Of a stretch of DNA of 30,498 nucleotides, positions 4,379 through 30,498 are shown one piece after another (within the stretch, counting starts at the first letter, position 1; each line of letters starts with the position of its first letter). The notes under the pieces were generated by a model. That model did not search any database. It was not told where the DNA came from and saw only the letters and a list, made by a program, of their open reading frames with translations. Source of the DNA: a virus; IMG/VR virus record IMGVR_UViG_3300020442_000106, positions 1 to 30,498 of that record; one strand, 5' to 3'. The translations under genes were made by a program, and so were the position numbers.

Positions 4379-7300
4379 TGGCAACTATTACACAAACTAT
4401 ACATAGTCTGAATGCTGGTATATCACAACAGCCTGACGAACAAAAGATTCCCGGTCAGGTAAAAGACATGCTAAATGCAATTCCTGATATTACACAGGGA
4501 TTACTAAAGAGACCGGCTGGTAAGTTTGTGTCAACTTTAGTTGGTTCTACGGATACCGGTAAATGGTTCCACTATTACAGAGATGAAAGTGAACAATATG
4601 TAGGACAGATACAACGAGACGGCACTGTTAAAATGTGGGCATGTGCGGAAGTTAGAGATTCACTAGGCAATGTTATACATCAGGCAGGCGCACCGGTTAC
4701 TGTAGTAGATGATACTGCTACAAGAGCATCAAATGATTTATATACATATGATGATGCTACTACAGGTAATAAATATCTGAAGCACTCAGCAGATGATATG
4801 ATTCAAACTCTAACTCTGAATGACTTTACATATATAAGTAATAGAAATGTCATTCCAGAGATGAGAACAGATACTGCTAATTTAGAACCTGAAGGAGATT
4901 TTTTAAAAGAAGTTTTTATTGAATTAAAATCTTTATCCTATGCAAAACAATATGCAGTAAACGTATTTGATAGTACAGACCCTGCTGATAACAGTACAGT
5001 AAATACTGCTACACGTATCAGGGTAACAATGGTAAACTCTAGTAATAATTATTGTGACTCTGGATTCCACATGAGAACACATGCAACTAGAGGTGATGGT
5101 AATAATGCTAGATGTGGTACACAGGCTGGTGATGGTAGAGATGCTTTCGCACCTAATGTAGGCACACGTATATTTTCAGTAGACAGTAATAAAACTCTTG
5201 TTGATGATGGAGCAACAGGTGGTACACTTGCTAACGGTAATCTTTCAGATATAAATTATGAATACCAAGTTAATATTCATAAGAAACCTTTTGGAGGTCA
5301 ATATACCCAAGCAAATAACAGTAACATTGTTACAGTAACTACAGCTACACCTCACGGATTATCAGTAGGAACATCAATGTTCTTTGATTTTGTTACTGGA
5401 GGTCTTGTTAATGAAGATACATTTAAAAATGTTACAAGCGTACCTAGTGCAACTACATTTACATTCAGTACTACTGCTACTAATACTTCAGGTTCAAACC
5501 ATTCTGGTGACGTAAACTCTTCAGAAACAGCTCAGACTGGAAGAAAGAATTTATACTTCCGTATAGCTACAACTGGTCAGTCGGTTCCTTACACAGAAGG
5601 TTCTGGTAGTAGTCAAACAACTACATACCAAGCTAGATATACAACTACATATGATTTATTGCATGGTGGTGAAGGCTGGTTAAAAGGAGACTTTTTCTAT
5701 GTCTTTATGAAAGATGCTTATTATAAAGTAGAAATAGAAGAATCTAGTGCATCTATTGTACAGGCAAACTTAGCTCTTGTACGACCAAACCCTACACCTT
5801 TTGACACAGAAACAACTATTACTGCTGAGAGTATTCTTGGTGATATAAGAGCAGAAATTACTGGAAATGATACAAATACAGGTAATGGATTTACTTGTAC
5901 ACAAATTGGTACAGGATTACATATAAAACGAACTAGCAACTTTAACGCTTCTACGCCCGTAGGAGAGCTGTTAAATGTTGTTGCTGGTAAAGTTAATGAT
6001 GTAGGTGATTTACCCTCTCAGTGCAAGCATGGAATGGTTGTAGAGGTTGTTAATAGCACAGCCGACGAGGATAATCATTATGTTAAGTTTTTTGGTAACA
6101 ATGATAAAGATGGTGAAGGTACATGGGAAGAGTGTGCTAAGCCGGGTAGAGCTATAAAGTTTAATGAAACTACTATGCCAGTAATTCTTATCAGAACTGC
6201 TGACGGTAACTTTAGACTTACAGAACAGAAAGGTGGTAACTACACCATTGCTGGTCAAAGCTATCCAGTTCCACAATGGGACAACGCTATAGTAGGTGAT
6301 GATGTAACTAACCCAGAGCCTTCTTTTATAGGTAAACCTATTACTCAAATGCTGTTTTTTAGAAACAGATTTGCACTACTGTCTGACGAACATATAGTTA
6401 TGTCACGTCCGGGAGACTTTACTAACTTCTTTGCTAAGTCTGCTATACAGTTAATAGCAAGTGACCCTATAGATATAGCTGCTAGTTCAGAATATCCAGC
6501 AATTTTATATGACGGAATACAAGTAAACACTGGTTTAATACTATTTTCTAAGAACCAGCAGTTTATGTTAACAACTGATAGTGATGTCTTTAGTCCTACA
6601 ACTGCTAAAATCAATGCGCTTTCTACCTATAATTTTAATTTTAAAACTAATCCTATTTCTCTTGGTACTACGATTGGTTTCTTAGACAATGCTGGTAAGC
6701 ATTCTAGATTCTTTGAAATGGCACAGGTACAAAGAGAAGGTGAACCACAAGTTATAGAACAGAGTGCAGTTGTAGCTAAGTTATTTGAGAATGATTTATC
6801 TTTAATTAGTAACTCTAGAGAAAACTCTATAATCTTATTTAGTGAAGACAACCAATCGACCTTGTATGGGTACAGGTATTTCGATCAGATTACAGAAAGA
6901 AAACTAGCTTCTTGGTTTAGATGGACTTTACCGGGAACTATTAAGTATCACTGTATGCAAGACGATGCCTTATTTGTAGTTATACAGAATGGTTCACAAC
7001 GTGAGTTATTGAAATTCTCTATAAGAATGGATAGTAATACTGTAGCTTTAGGTGACGACAGAGTACATTTAGATTACTTAATGCCAGTAACATCTTTAGC
7101 ATCTAGTGCTTATAGTGGTGGTAATACTACATTTACTAAACCTTCGGGTCTTAATGGCAACGGTCAGTTAGCTGTATATGATATAGACGACCCTGCTAAC
7201 CCAGCATTAACTATTGGTAATTATCAAGAAGCAACAGTTAGTGGTAGTAATATAGTCATACCCGGAGATTGGACAGGACAGAATTTTTATATAGGTTATC

Positions 7301-26826: not shown

Positions 26827-27105
26827 ATGGAAAATAAATTAAAAATAAGTCATTTTAAAGAATTATATAAGAGTCTTAAAACTCCTTTCCCACCTATTAA
26901 TTTTTTAATACTTGGTATGTTAATCGGTCTCGAGCAGAGATGGATAGAACTAAAAACTAAGCAAACAGTAGATATGGCTATTGACGAATACCATGATAAG
27001 ATGGATGAACTGTCAGAACCTGTCTACAAAGCAGTGATAAAAGAGGTGGAAGACGGATATACTATAGGCTACTTCCCAGAAGACAAAGATGAAACTGTTT
27101 CTTGA
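26827..27105 (+). CDS. Hypothetical protein, 92 aa
   Basis: 92 residues beginning MENKLKISHFKELYKSL. One moderately hydrophobic stretch (PINFLILGMLIGLEQRW, about residues 23-39) could be a membrane-touching helix. The rest is acidic and helical (DEYHDKMDELSEPVYKAV; PEDKDETVS). The last 17 nt overlap the start of talC in another frame, so the two are probably co-translated. No family recognised. Confidence 0.65.
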   Translation: MENKLKISHFKELYKSLKTPFPPINFLILGMLIGLEQRWIELKTKQTVDMAIDEYHDKMDELSEPVYKAVIKEVEDGYTIGYFPEDKDETVS

Positions 27106-27739
27106 CACAGCGATTATTGAAGAAATAGACTCTAGACTAAGTTCTGGAGTTATTTCTGGGGTGACCACCAACCCTACGCTAATAAAGAAGAGTGGAAAAG
27201 ACCCTGACGACATATACGCAGATCTTATACAAGATATAGGTGTCAAAGACCTATCAATAGAGGTAAACGGACAGTTTGCTGACCAACTGATAGAGAATGG
27301 CATTAAGTATGGTAAGTTATGGGCACATGAAGCTACTATCAAGCTACCCTGTACACCAGAAGGTATAAAAGCCTGTAAAACACTTAGTTACATGGGCATA
27401 CGTACTAACATGACGTTAGTATTTAGTGTGTCACAAGCTATTCTATGTGCATTAGCAGGAGCAACCTACGTGTCACCTTTTGTTGGACGTTTAGACGACA
27501 ACGGACACGATGGTATAGGGTTGATTCGTGAGATAGCTAAAGTATTCTGCCATAATAGGACAGATACTAAAATACTAGCTGCCAGCATTCGTGATGCTGC
27601 TACAGTTGGTAAGGCATTTCAAGCCGGTGCACATATTTGCACCATACCGCCAAAAGTCTTTGACGATATGTACAAACATGTGCTCACTGATAAGGGATTA
27701 TTTCAGTTTATTATAGACTCAGGACAGATTAACCCTTAA
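27089..27739 (+). CDS. talC: Transaldolase, TalC/fructose-6-phosphate aldolase type
   Basis: 216 residues, the compact TalC/FSA length. It opens with MKLFLDTAIIEEI and GVISGVTTNPTLIKKSG, the TIM-barrel phosphate-side signature. The Schiff-base lysine is K85 in EATIKLPCTPEG, the same residue number as K85 of E. coli FSA. The IRTNMTLVFSVSQAILCALAGA, VSPFVGRLDD and ILAASIRDAATV strands follow. Cyanophage TalC is known to push host carbon through the pentose phosphate pathway for NADPH and nucleotide precursors. Position beside the terminase at the right end of late genes matches other T7-like cyanophages. Confidence 0.96.
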   Translation: MKLFLDTAIIEEIDSRLSSGVISGVTTNPTLIKKSGKDPDDIYADLIQDIGVKDLSIEVNGQFADQLIENGIKYGKLWAHEATIKLPCTPEGIKACKTLSYMGIRTNMTLVFSVSQAILCALAGATYVSPFVGRLDDNGHDGIGLIREIAKVFCHNRTDTKILAASIRDAATVGKAFQAGAHICTIPPKVFDDMYKHVLTDKGLFQFIIDSGQINP

Positions 27740-27847
27740 ATTTTGGCAAAAATGTCTCAGGTGTATTATATATATCGCGCACGGCAGGTTTCCCCCATAG
27801 GGGTCGCCCCGTTACCGCAGGCACGCGCACGCGTTAATTGATCGCGT

Positions 27848-27869
27848 ATGCGTGTCCAATGCGTGTCCA
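27848..27869 (+). repeat. Perfect tandem 11-bp repeat (ATGCGTGTCCA x2)
   Basis: ATGCGTGTCCA at 27848-27858 is followed immediately by an identical copy at 27859-27869, in the GC-rich part of the non-coding junction. Two head-to-tail copies are the minimum for an iteron-like or protein-binding arrangement; chance or slippage is also possible. Confidence 0.85.
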
Positions 27870-28065
27870 GCTCGCTTCGCTCGCACCGCCAAACCCAGTG
27901 ATAGCAAGGGTTCTCACGGTATGTAGTACTGTCAAGGAGACAGCACTGCTGGTGGAGCGAGGCGTAGCCGAGCGGATACAACTAAATCGCGCAGGCATGC
28001 AGGCACGCGGATATCTAGAACGCGCGTAAGCAGCGATCTGTTGCCTAGCCGAGACTCACTGAGAC

Positions 28066-28100
28066 AACAATAATATACTACTACGTAGTTATATATTGTT
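28066..28100. repeat. A/T-rich inverted repeat
   Basis: AACAATA (28066-28072) pairs with TATTGTT (28094-28100), continuing through TATA/TATA to a central CTACGTAG palindrome. No T-tract follows, so it is not a standard terminator. Confidence 0.75.
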
Positions 28101-28160
28101 ACAGAATGTTAAGATGAGTTGTAATGCTTGTCGGATAGGGTTTATACTGGGAAGGTAGAT

Positions 28161-28234
28161 AGAGTTGTTTACGTTATGTTATATTCTCTCTCCTAGAATA
28201 GGTGAGAGAGATAATATAACTTAACTACAACTCT
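28161..28234. repeat. Long 74-nt imperfect hairpin
   Basis: Nested arms: AGAGTTGT/ACAACTCT (28161-28168 with 28227-28234), GTTATATT/AATATAAC (28178-28185 with 28213-28220), CTCTCTC/GAGAGAG (28186-28192 with 28204-28210). The apex (CTA-GAA-TAG) can pair further. It would form in the 5' leader of the KTSC-like gene if transcription starts from the TATACT box just upstream. The layout recalls the RNase III-cleaved intergenic hairpins of T7 early mRNA, by analogy only. Confidence 0.8.
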
Positions 28235-28265
28235 CTACTCACTGTTCACTTTACAATTTTCGATT

Positions 28266-28574
28266 ATGTTCACTTCAATTCCAAATCCTCGTACATCCGA
28301 CGCTGTTGAGGCTATCAACGTTAACCCTTTTACAAGGGTTGTTAACGTCAGGTTCACCAATGGCTATGAGTACAAGTACTCAAACGTTAGCAGAGCTAAG
28401 ATTGTAAATCTTATGCTCAACCCTAACATGTCCTTCGGATTCTGGATTCAGGACTTGTCCAAGAACGCAGTCAGAGCTCTAAGTTACCTTAGAGGCAACA
28501 CTGTTGCGACTGGTAAGCTATGCTACCAGTTCACTGGTTGCACTAACGACAGCTCTGCTGTCCTACCTTTCTAA
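28266..28574 (+). CDS. KTSC-domain-like small protein
   Basis: 102 residues. The middle (VVNVRFTNGYEYKYSNVSRAKI) and NPNMSFGFWIQDLSKNAV resemble the KTSC domain (a short beta-hairpin plus helix module seen beside lysyl-tRNA synthetase and in many phage small proteins; its role is not established). Starts at ATG 28266 after a 500-base spacer. Its coding sequence is unusual at the nucleotide level: it holds a run of short perfect stem-loops (for example AACCCTT-TTAC-AAGGGTT at 28323-28340, AAGATT-GTA-AATCTT at 28398-28412, GACAGC-TCT-GCTGTC at 28548-28562). Confidence 0.75.
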   Translation: MFTSIPNPRTSDAVEAINVNPFTRVVNVRFTNGYEYKYSNVSRAKIVNLMLNPNMSFGFWIQDLSKNAVRALSYLRGNTVATGKLCYQFTGCTNDSSAVLPF

Positions 28575-28646
28575 CCTACGGTTAGTTTGCGTCGTTGGTC
28601 CTCGCTTGGGTTCGATTCCCAAGGACGCCGTTACCCTTTAGGGTAA
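28571..28646 (+). other. Three-hairpin intergenic cluster with tRNA T-arm-like core
   Basis: CTAACC-TAC-GGTTAG (28571-28585) is followed by a T-arm-like structure: TTGGG, loop TTCGATT, CCCAA (28606-28622), then acceptor-like GGACGCC and a G. GCGTC at 28589-28593 can pair with GACGC at 28624-28628, stacking an acceptor-like stem on the T-arm with the D and anticodon arms missing. TTACCC-TTTA-GGGTAA (28631-28646) follows. It is too short for a tRNA gene. It could be an attachment-type tRNA fragment, a structured RNA, or an mRNA processing site. Confidence 0.6.
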
Positions 28647-28672
28647 ACTGTCCACCTTACACCCATTCTGTC

Positions 28673-29362
28673 ATGCTAGTCCACATCACAAAAAAATCCA
28701 GCAATGCTAAAACAGGCAGAATGCCTGTAACAACTACCGAGGAATCCTCATGCCCAAGCACATGCCCACACCTACAGTCAGGAGGTTGCTACGCAAAATC
28801 CGGTCCAGTATCTTGGCACTGGAAAAAAGTGAGCTCCGGTCTACGTGGTGGTACTTGGTCTGACTTGACTGACTTCGTCAGCAAGTTAGAGCGCGGTCAG
28901 CTATGGCGTCACAACCAAGCTGGCGACCTTGGTTATACCAAGGCACAAGGACGCGAGTACATCAGACTTGACTTGCTCAAGTCTCTTGTTGATGCTAACA
29001 AATCCAGTGGTGCCAAGGGTTACACCTACACACACCACCAGCTACACGCTCACAACCTCGAAGCTGTAAAGTACAGTAACCGCAATGGTTTTACAGTCAA
29101 CGCCTCATGCGAGAGCATGCAGCAGGCAGACGCAGCCATAGCGCAAGGCGTACCAGCAGTGTGTGTTGTTGACAATAGTCAACCAGTAGCAGCAAGGACG
29201 CCAGCCGGTCACAAAGTTGTGATTTGCCCAGCGCAAACACGTGACACTAACTGCAACGACTGCGGTTTGTGCCAACAGTCCAAGCGCACTTGCGTTGTTG
29301 CATTCCTCGCACACGGCAACAAGTCCAAAAAAGTTAATCAGTCACTACAGGAGGTCGCTTAA
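28673..29362 (+). CDS. Cysteine-rich phage protein (DUF7227-like)
   Basis: 229 residues from ATG 28673; an upstream TTG start would run through the T-arm-like hairpin and is rejected. The N-terminus has TGRMPVTTTEESSCPSTCPH and SGGCYAKSGPVSWHW, giving three clustered cysteines. The middle has KGYTYTHHQLH. The C-terminus has VVICPAQT followed by CNDCGLCQQSKRTCVV, another cluster. The paired cysteine clusters imply a zinc or iron-sulphur site. I recall a phage family of this pattern (DUF7227) with no established function. SD-like ACAGGAGG lies at its 3' end for the next gene. Confidence 0.78.
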   Translation: MLVHITKKSSNAKTGRMPVTTTEESSCPSTCPHLQSGGCYAKSGPVSWHWKKVSSGLRGGTWSDLTDFVSKLERGQLWRHNQAGDLGYTKAQGREYIRLDLLKSLVDANKSSGAKGYTYTHHQLHAHNLEAVKYSNRNGFTVNASCESMQQADAAIAQGVPAVCVVDNSQPVAARTPAGHKVVICPAQTRDTNCNDCGLCQQSKRTCVVAFLAHGNKSKKVNQSLQEVA

Positions 29363-29529
29363 TGGATAACCATATTTATATGGTTTATGATGACAGCTCG
29401 CCCGAGTCTACACGACGCGCGGACGAAACCCATAAGTCCTTGCTAGACAAGGGCTTTCGGGTAATTCACAAGGAGGCAGGATATAATTCTGCCCGTTACG
29501 AATATGCGAGAGTTGTAGTTAATTCGTAA
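29362..29529 (+). CDS. Small hypothetical protein, 55 aa
   Basis: The ATG at 29362 overlaps the previous TAA (TAATG) and is preceded by an excellent GGAGG at 29350-29354. It encodes MDNHIYMVYDDSSPESTRRA, then DETHKSLLDKGFRVIHKEAG and a YARVVVNS end. A small alpha/beta protein; no family recognised. The coding sequence carries strong hairpins at its start (29368-29385) and end (29495-29530). Confidence 0.75.
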   Translation: MDNHIYMVYDDSSPESTRRADETHKSLLDKGFRVIHKEAGYNSARYEYARVVVNS

Positions 29530-29550
29530 CATTTAATATAATTAAATAAT

Positions 29551-29597
29551 CCCGAGATCCCTTGCTATGACAGGGGTTTCGGCTTTTTTATTTTTTT
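29551..29597 (+). terminator. Rho-independent terminator
   Basis: CCGAGATCCC (29552-29561) pairs with GGGGTTTCGG (29573-29582) over 10 bp, including G-T wobbles, with an 11-nt loop. A C, six Ts, an A and seven Ts follow. It closes the transcription unit of the KTSC-like and cysteine-rich genes. Confidence 0.9.
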
Positions 29598-29636
29598 CAC
29601 AAGCACACAATCATCACAATCAAGGACGCCACACTC

Positions 29637-29744
29637 ATGTCACAATCATTCACAAGCATGGACGCAGGGACGCAACAACCTACTAAAACTAAACGCAAGG
29701 ACGTACCCACCTACCCAGAGCCAGAAGGTGACCCATCATATTAA
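29637..29744 (+). CDS. Possible micro-protein, 35 aa
   Basis: The ORF encodes MSQSFTSMDAGTQQPTKTKR, then KDVPTYPEPEGDPSY. It is polar, Pro-rich and probably unstructured. It starts 40 bases after a terminator without a clear Shine-Dalgarno, and contains two GGACGC copies plus a near-match of the 9-mer repeat. Coding is uncertain. Confidence 0.4.
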   Translation: MSQSFTSMDAGTQQPTKTKRKDVPTYPEPEGDPSY

Positions 29745-29768
29745 GAATTGTTACAAATATCCACATAC

Positions 29769-29797
29769 TTGACCTTTACCGATTAGACTACTATTAG
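29769..29797 (+). promoter_or_regulatory. Sigma70-type promoter
   Basis: TTGACC (29769-29774), a 17-base spacer and TATTAG (29792-29797) form a good bacterial promoter, placed about 16 bases before the ATG at 29813. Host-polymerase promoters of this kind drive early genes in T7-like phages. Confidence 0.6.
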
Positions 29798-29812
29798 TTC
29801 ACTCCATCTATT

Positions 29813-29959
29813 ATGAACATTGATCTCTATTCTATCCTGTCACAAAAAGACAAGGACACAGTATGCGATATAGTCAACGAGACTATCGCTGAACATTATG
29901 GCGAGGACGCAGTCAATGACTTTGACTTTGACCTATCCGCAATACGCATTGAGGACTAA
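29813..29959 (+). CDS. Small acidic hypothetical protein, 48 aa
   Basis: The 48-residue acidic ORF reads MNIDLYSILSQKDKDTVCDI, then VNETIAEHYGEDAVNDFDFD and LSAIRIED. It follows a sigma70-like promoter closely and precedes two more small genes, so it is a typical early-region gene. Strong acidity is common among small T7-type host-takeover proteins, but no specific homologue is recognised. Confidence 0.75.
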   Translation: MNIDLYSILSQKDKDTVCDIVNETIAEHYGEDAVNDFDFDLSAIRIED

Positions 29960-29961
29960 CC

Positions 29962-30159
29962 ATGACTATCTTTGAATTTAACGAGCAGCTTTGCGAAATT
30001 ATCGCAGGCGAAGACGGTTACTACAATTATGACAAGCAAGAAATTCTTGACCTTGCCAAACAAATGAAAACATCAGCAGAAGAGTATCAAAACATGCTCG
30101 ACTGCAAGGACGCTGCCGAAGTGCACGAGTTAATGAATCCTGCGCTATGTGACGTATGA
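29962..30159 (+). CDS. Small acidic hypothetical protein, 65 aa
   Basis: 65 residues starting two bases after the previous stop: MTIFEFNEQLCEIIAGEDGY, then YNYDKQEILDLAKQMKTSAE and a C-terminal part with LDCKDAAEVHELMNPALCDV. Acidic and helical. The stop overlaps the next ATG (ATGA at 30156-30159). No family recognised. Confidence 0.8.
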   Translation: MTIFEFNEQLCEIIAGEDGYYNYDKQEILDLAKQMKTSAEEYQNMLDCKDAAEVHELMNPALCDV

Positions 30160-30362
30160 CTAAGTACGAAATACGCATAACGCAGACATGCAGAGACTAC
30201 TACCGCGTAGAGGCTACTGACGCCAAGGACGCGGAGCAACAAGTATGGGCAGCACTACGCAGTGGTATCATGGGCAATGTAGCTCTTGATGATACTATTG
30301 ACAGCGCACCAACTATCGACTACACTGTACAATTATCACCCGAAGGAGAGGTAATCCTATGA
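30156..30362 (+). CDS. Small hypothetical protein, 68 aa
   Basis: 68 residues: MTKYEIRITQTCRDYYRVEA, then TDAKDAEQQVWAALRSGIMG and a TVQLSPEGEVIL end. The pattern (beta strand, YRVEATDAKDAEQQV helix) resembles small single-domain phage proteins with a DpnD/PcfM-like outline (PF14207); I hold this loosely. The stop overlaps the next ATG, and AAGGAGAGG precedes that start. Confidence 0.75.
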   Translation: MTKYEIRITQTCRDYYRVEATDAKDAEQQVWAALRSGIMGNVALDDTIDSAPTIDYTVQLSPEGEVIL

Positions 30363-30498
30363 CAATCGACATCACCCAACAACTCAACTACTCTCAAGCA
30401 GTACGTAGAGCACGTCCAGAATGGGACGACGACAAAGTAAGAAGAGCAGCCGAGTACCTTGTACTATACATGGACGTAAGGCTCAAGCCATACAAAGT
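30359..30498 (+). CDS. Hypothetical protein, 3' end beyond window
   Basis: Starts at ATG 30359 on an ATGA overlap with a strong AGGAGAGG upstream, and is open to the window end (46 codons). It begins MTIDITQQLNYSQAVRRARP, then EWDDDKVRRAAEYLVLYMDV. Too little is present to name it. Confidence 0.75.
   Translation, partial: MTIDITQQLNYSQAVRRARPEWDDDKVRRAAEYLVLYMDVRLKPYK

Follow-up and report, generated by a model that had tools for sequence, protein, structure and literature searches.

Selection for folding within coding sequences is a known phenomenon. The ssRNA coliphages (MS2, Qbeta) and other RNA viruses carry local hairpins in their coding regions beyond the number found in shuffled sequences, and keep them in bulk. 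The early mRNA of T7 is a structured RNA with RNase III sites, ompA-type 5′ stem-loops stabilise bacterial mRNAs, and MS2-type operator arrays present stems with a small loop.

Here we describe a T7-like cyanophage whose first early operon is tiled with short, perfectly paired hairpins. The tiling shares with the RNA viruses the excess of coding hairpins and their retention in bulk, with T7 the setting in a first early operon, with ompA-type transcripts a strong hairpin where the 5′ end is predicted to lie, and with MS2-type operators the stem length and small loop. However, the hairpins lie in one operon of a dsDNA phage, hardly use G-U pairs and have loops of mostly 3–4 nt, which sets them apart from those of RNA viruses. 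The genome of T7 has no such hairpin-dense zone, and the stems seen here are short and mostly intragenic; a 5′ stem-loop of the ompA type would leave the tiling through genes unaccounted for; and, unlike operator arrays, the stems have no common loop, bulge or sequence. In pairing and in spread, the tiling departs from the ordered folding of RNA phages. Rfam gave no curated-family match (one chance match, E 0.44), defence-protein libraries gave no match, and among Rfam families, named systems and open-access papers we found none that describes the tiling.

Genomic setting

The window analysed here, the 30,498 nt of IMG/VR record IMGVR_UViG_3300020442_000106, comes from a T7-like cyanophage near Prochlorococcus phage P-GSP1 (nucleotide identity of about 79% across most of 27000–30498). 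The gene order runs from the terminase and transaldolase (talC) genes through the genome-end region to the first early genes; the record of phage P-SSP7 includes a terminal repeat of 206 bp, and the homologues of these first genes are placed there about 0.7–1.8 kb from the left end. The hairpin zone maps onto the first early transcription unit, which comprises a promoter, a 5′ leader hairpin, a KTSC-like gene, a T-arm-like element, a DUF7227 gene, a small ORF and a terminator, all on the plus strand.

A sigma-70-like sequence, TTGTAA-18-TATACT (28119–28148), found by consensus scan only, is the likely early promoter, with a predicted start at about 28155. The long leader hairpin (28155–28238; −36.6 kcal/mol, z −4.8) would stand at the very 5′ end of the early mRNA; variants of it occur across relatives, with more than one Watson–Crick type at four pairs, and P-SSP7 has a shorter version (L063, about 345–400). 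The first gene of the unit (28266–28574) encodes a 102-aa KTSC-like protein that scores below the Pfam cut-off (E 2.7e-4) and whose structural model resembles the KTSC structures 4rgi and 7x8c (E 3e-3 to 4e-2). KTSC genes are also present, without annotation, in the records of P-SSP7 (L063, 709–963) and S-CBP4 (L073, 866–1153). The second gene (28673–29362) encodes a 229-aa DUF7227 protein (Pfam E 1e-82), a structure search with the model of which gave no usable match. The last gene is a 55-aa ORF with no assigned function (29362–29529), and the unit closes with a terminator-like stem and T run (29551–29589), read directly from the letters and missed by a simple scan. Elsewhere in P-SSP7, Rfam places a Glutamine-II riboswitch aptamer directly after psbA (L063, 20522–20575).

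Between the KTSC-like and DUF7227 genes lies a tRNA-T-arm-like element (28589–28628) composed of GCGTC, a linker, CTTGGG-TTCGATT-CCCAAG and GACGC. Across 38 aligned loci, both sides changed in six of its 12 pairs, a number reached in none of 500 shuffles. The element resembles T-arm/acceptor minihelices of tRNA in its T-loop (TTCRAYT) and its covarying outer 5-bp stem, but it has no full cloverleaf and ARAGORN calls no tRNA. A copy of the T-arm with an acceptor-like minihelix is found at 6418–6457 of L002. In the KTSC leader of P-SSP7 (L063, about 605–655), a second tRNA-like stretch can be seen by eye, with a GGCAG/CTGCC acceptor, a hairpin and the T-arm GTGG-TTCAAGT-CCAT; ARAGORN makes no call there.

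A further motif, CAAGGACG / CATGGACG (CAWGGACG), is repeated between 28619 and 30234 of the window. Its copies are confined to the plus strand of the early region, where they lie in both coding and non-coding DNA and fall in several reading frames; the motif occurs also in S-RIP2 and S-SBP1. Among relatives, CANGGAC peaks about 1250–1500 nt past the KTSC start (3.4 per 250 nt versus 0.04 on the other strand). The motif looks like a CsrA-type GGA site, yet none of eight phage records was found to hold a CsrA gene, and we set this candidate aside.

An excess of short, perfect stems

Between 28318 and 29582, perfect stems with loops of 2–7 nt number 25 at 5 bp or longer, 17 at 6 bp or longer and 10 at 7 bp or longer. 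Dinucleotide shuffles gave means of 6.5, 1.6 and 0.42 for the same classes, with maxima of 16, 8 and 3 in 500, and synonymous-codon shuffles of the 102-aa and DUF7227 genes gave p ≤ 0.002 in all size classes. The stretch is the maximum of the window, where the mean per 1265 bases is 3.2 stems of at least 6 bp and 0.98 of at least 7 bp, and stem counts in talC and the terminase gene are near shuffle expectation. The excess is limited to short loops, and the zone extends from about 28290 to the terminator. An initial annotation, made from the sequence alone, had proposed that this zone is unusually dense in stems, with one or two of at least 6 bp expected by simple arithmetic; the shuffles bear out that estimate, and the density proves real and stronger than stated. 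Counting along the sequence, which it had suggested as a check, puts the maximum of the window at this zone, well above shuffled sequence.

From 5′ to 3′, the hairpins begin with AACCCTT/AAGGGTT (28323–28340; 7 bp, loop 4), TGAGTAC/GTACTCA (28367–28382; 7 bp around two bases, equivalent to 6 bp with a 4-nt loop), TAAGATT/AATCTTA (28397–28413; 7 bp, loop 3) and CTCTAAG/CTTAGAG (28477–28494; 7 bp, loop 4). They continue with ACCAGT/ACTGGT (28525–28538; 6 bp around two bases), GACAGC/GCTGTC (28548–28562; 6 bp, loop 3), CTAACC/GGTTAG (28571–28585; 6 bp, loop 3), which spans a stop codon, and TTACCCT/AGGGTAA (28631–28646; 7 bp around two bases). Next come ACAGGCA/TGCCTGT (28712–28728; 7 bp, loop 3), CCTTGGT/ACCAAGG (28927–28943; 7 bp, loop 3), which P-GSP1 rebuilds with other bases, AGACTTGA/TCAAGTCT (28964–28984; 8 bp, loop 5), GTTGAC/GTCAAC (29168–29183; 6 bp, loop 4) and TCACAA/TTGTGA (29209–29222; 6 bp around two bases). 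The series ends with AACCATAT/ATATGGTT (29368–29385; 8 bp around two bases), directly 3′ of a start codon and identical in P-GSP1, and ATTTAAT/ATTAAAT (29531–29547; 7 bp, loop 3). All five 7-bp stems named in the initial annotation were recovered, the one at 29368 as 8 bp around its 2-base centre; the stems at 28367, 28397, 28477 and 28631, which it had scored at 5–6 bp, are each 7 bp long.

A typical hairpin has 6–8 bp, a loop of 3–4 nt and often a C-G closing pair. In a set of 31 dereplicated regions, there were 252, 213, 202, 46 and 4 stems of 5, 6, 7, 8 and 9 bp, respectively, against 152, 40, 10, 3 and 0.8 in shuffles. Loops of three and four bases (177 and 171, against about 10 each in shuffles) dominate at every stem length, and C-G closes 69 of 149 distinct cores, compared with 20% of chance stems. 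The G+C content of the stems drops with length (0.48, 0.44, 0.39 and 0.36 for 5–8 bp), as a stability window would give. GNA triloops are present 12 times against 4.5 expected, UUCG loops are absent, GNRA loops are hardly enriched, and such hairpins cover about 22% of bases. Neither a shared stem sequence or loop motif nor regular spacing was found among the stems. An apparent 5′-bulge asymmetry was discarded because two conserved sequences had produced it.

Distribution and turnover among relatives

In P-GSP1, P-SSP2, P-SSP3 and P-SSP7, the genome-wide peak of tight stems falls in this same first region, at 10–18 per kb versus about 1.7–1.9. Tiling is weak in Tangaroavirus and the Synechococcus podoviruses, and a hairpin-dense zone is absent from the genomes of T7, Syn5 and SS120-1. 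The tiling recurs in most of the 57 IMG/VR loci that encode a KTSC gene; within the main group, synonymous shuffles have on average 1.0 stems in the KTSC gene and 0.9 in the DUF7227 gene, where the real sequences have 5.4 and 6.4. These loci share ancestry and are therefore not independent tests, and three named genera beyond the window's own kind concur. The mean profile across loci sits at background immediately 5′ of the KTSC start, at 1.4–2.2 stems per 100 nt in the 400 nt that follow, and at background again about 1300 nt downstream, at the terminator. The stems are not a property of the DUF7227 protein, because the DUF7227 gene of S-SRP01 is stemless and L057, which has another gene in that place, has stems. 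Pseudomonas phage PAK_P1 also shows a stem-dense stretch (L076, 27001–29500; about 67000–69500), partly without annotated genes, which is perhaps a tRNA cluster.

The P-GSP1 copy of the region carries 22 stems of at least 6 bp, many at positions that differ from those of the window, and mapping through codon alignments revealed stems common to some relatives alongside shifted or different stems in others. Where a stem was present in one sequence and absent from its nearest relative, both arms differed in 47 of 60 cases, with a codon-position pattern equal to background. Stems that were kept whole showed exchange on both sides at 37 pairs, the compensatory substitutions that the initial annotation had asked for, and 59 of 109 both-side changes relative to the nearest relative restored a Watson–Crick pair. 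Because stem positions turn over at a maintained density, with changes in both arms and with compensatory exchanges, these comparisons point to selection for hairpins as such: what is favoured is having hairpins, not particular ones. The proposal that folding of this region is under selection is supported alike by shuffles, relatives, compensatory exchanges and turnover, and we regard it as practically certain that the tiling exists and is selected.

Pairing rule and strand symmetry

If selection acted on the stability of the sense mRNA, the enrichment of hairpins with a G-U pair would be expected to come close to that of energy-matched Watson–Crick ones. Hairpins that contain a single G-U pair were enriched 0.7–1.8-fold, versus 4–13-fold for Watson–Crick hairpins, in every energy bin except the most stable, where the values were 4-fold and 15-fold. 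Against synonymous shuffles, the enrichment of G-U hairpins was 1.2–1.7-fold for the sense strand and 0.9-fold for the antisense strand, compared with 6–8-fold for Watson–Crick hairpins. The RNA phages served as positive control, with phiX174, T7 and late genes as further controls: the same procedure applied to MS2, Qbeta and PP7 coding regions gave 1.8–3.1-fold for G-U and 3.0–4.0-fold for Watson–Crick hairpins (2.7 and 5.2 over whole genomes).

As G-U hairpins are hardly enriched, the constraint is nearly strand-symmetric. The margin of sense RNA over its shuffles is 6.7 kcal/mol per 120 nt, compared with 1.9 in other genes, but sense and antisense RNA fold nearly alike, leaving a weak sense bias with other genes as the control. 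Either both RNAs are selected or the selected form is DNA. The initial suggestion of an early mRNA selected for folding holds as regards selected folding, but its plain sense-mRNA form is weakened by the near absence of G-U pairs, set against the RNA phages. The tiling has the coding-region folding excess of ordered RNA structure; we do not class it with the ordered folding of RNA phages, because wobble use and genome-wide spread are both lacking. RNA is favoured by the way the tiling coincides with a single transcription unit, by the leader hairpin, by the T-arm-like element and its six covarying pairs, and by the weak sense bias; the pairing rule, loop sizes and loop motifs are arguments for DNA.

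Candidate roles of the tiling

Selection in this phage group favours a first early operon that, as a single strand, forms numerous small hairpins, generic and perfectly paired. We infer, tentatively and with rather less than even confidence, that these hairpins act in the transcript. Each hairpin would fold on leaving the polymerase, so that the first mRNA, with the 5′ hairpin at its head and the terminator at its end, would remain locally folded. Such folding could slow single-strand endonucleases such as RNase E, as well as annealing to the antisense RNA that covers phage transcripts, while individual stems would be small enough for ribosomes to melt. The almost pure Watson–Crick pairing would follow if sense and antisense RNA both had to fold.

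P-SSP7 raises host RNase E, according to two reports (PMC9692554; PMC10989914), and its transcripts are described in one of them as almost completely covered by antisense RNA (PMC9692554), a coverage that selection on both RNAs would fit. In Qbeta-type RNAs, double-strand formation is limited by folding (PMC6913131). For a role in the transcript we count these three points, together with the density limits at the operon ends, the kept 5′ hairpin, the T-arm-like element, the energy of the sense RNA and the trend in stem G+C; against it we count the scarce enrichment of G-U hairpins, the near likeness of sense and antisense, the lack of UUCG loops, the hardly enriched GNRA loops and the low share of bases covered.

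It is possible, though on balance unlikely, that DNA is the selected form, as mini-hairpins or small cruciforms in a single-stranded or negatively supercoiled first transcribed region. These could arise in a transcription bubble or R-loop, during transcription-driven genome entry or in replication near the left end, and could serve as structural signals or torsion sinks. The near-pure Watson–Crick pairing, which holds on both strands, the dominance of 3–4-nt loops at every stem length, the frequent C-G closing and GNA triloops, and the position of the zone in P-SSP7, 0.5–2.4 kb from the left end of the genome, all fit such a form. However, the zone is bounded by a single transcription unit and includes neither the terminal repeat nor the 5′ leader, sense-strand RNA elements sit in the same unit, and arms of 7 bp are short for cruciforms. 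More specifically, and a little more doubtfully, a dsDNA phage may keep an array of shape-defined, strictly Watson–Crick DNA mini-hairpins in the coding sequence of its first operon for use during entry or first transcription.

Recognition of the hairpins by shape, by a phage or host protein, is improbable. The tight geometry of stem and loop would suit it, and a candidate exists in the KTSC-fold product of the first gene, perhaps regulating its own operon; KTSC has been described as DNA-binding (PMC9503650). Yet Synechococcus phages have KTSC genes without tiling, and the stems have neither common sequence nor regular spacing. The same absences, with that of a loop motif, speak against the sequence-specific binding array for one protein that the initial annotation had listed. 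A helical-phase dimer operator in duplex DNA was likewise rejected, with loops of 3–4 nt at all arm lengths and no shared half-site.

Mutation could also perfect the complementarity of arms without selection, through template switching at hairpins, and perfect pairing with small loops is what it would leave. We consider such a drive very unlikely: both arms differ in most gained or lost stems, with the background codon-position pattern, stem length does not tail off but has its mode at 6–7 bp, and only one operon is affected. Still less probable is the RNase III-type processing, as in T7 early RNA, that had been put forward for these stems. T7-type sites are long imperfect stems between early genes, whereas the tiled stems are of 6–8 bp with tiny loops and mostly intragenic, and T7 has no such tiling; the leader hairpin alone, upstream of the zone first described, resembles such a site and could be one. 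Chance or composition has a negligible prospect of accounting for the excess, being contradicted by dinucleotide and synonymous shuffles and by recurrence in many relatives, with no supporting point found.

The almost pure Watson–Crick pairing of these hairpins challenges the default view of such folding as selected in mRNA. If DNA were the selected form, the tiling would be a DNA-structure code overlaid on genes, without known counterpart. As it stands, the operon offers a concrete, recodable target for learning what protects or drives the early operon of a phage.
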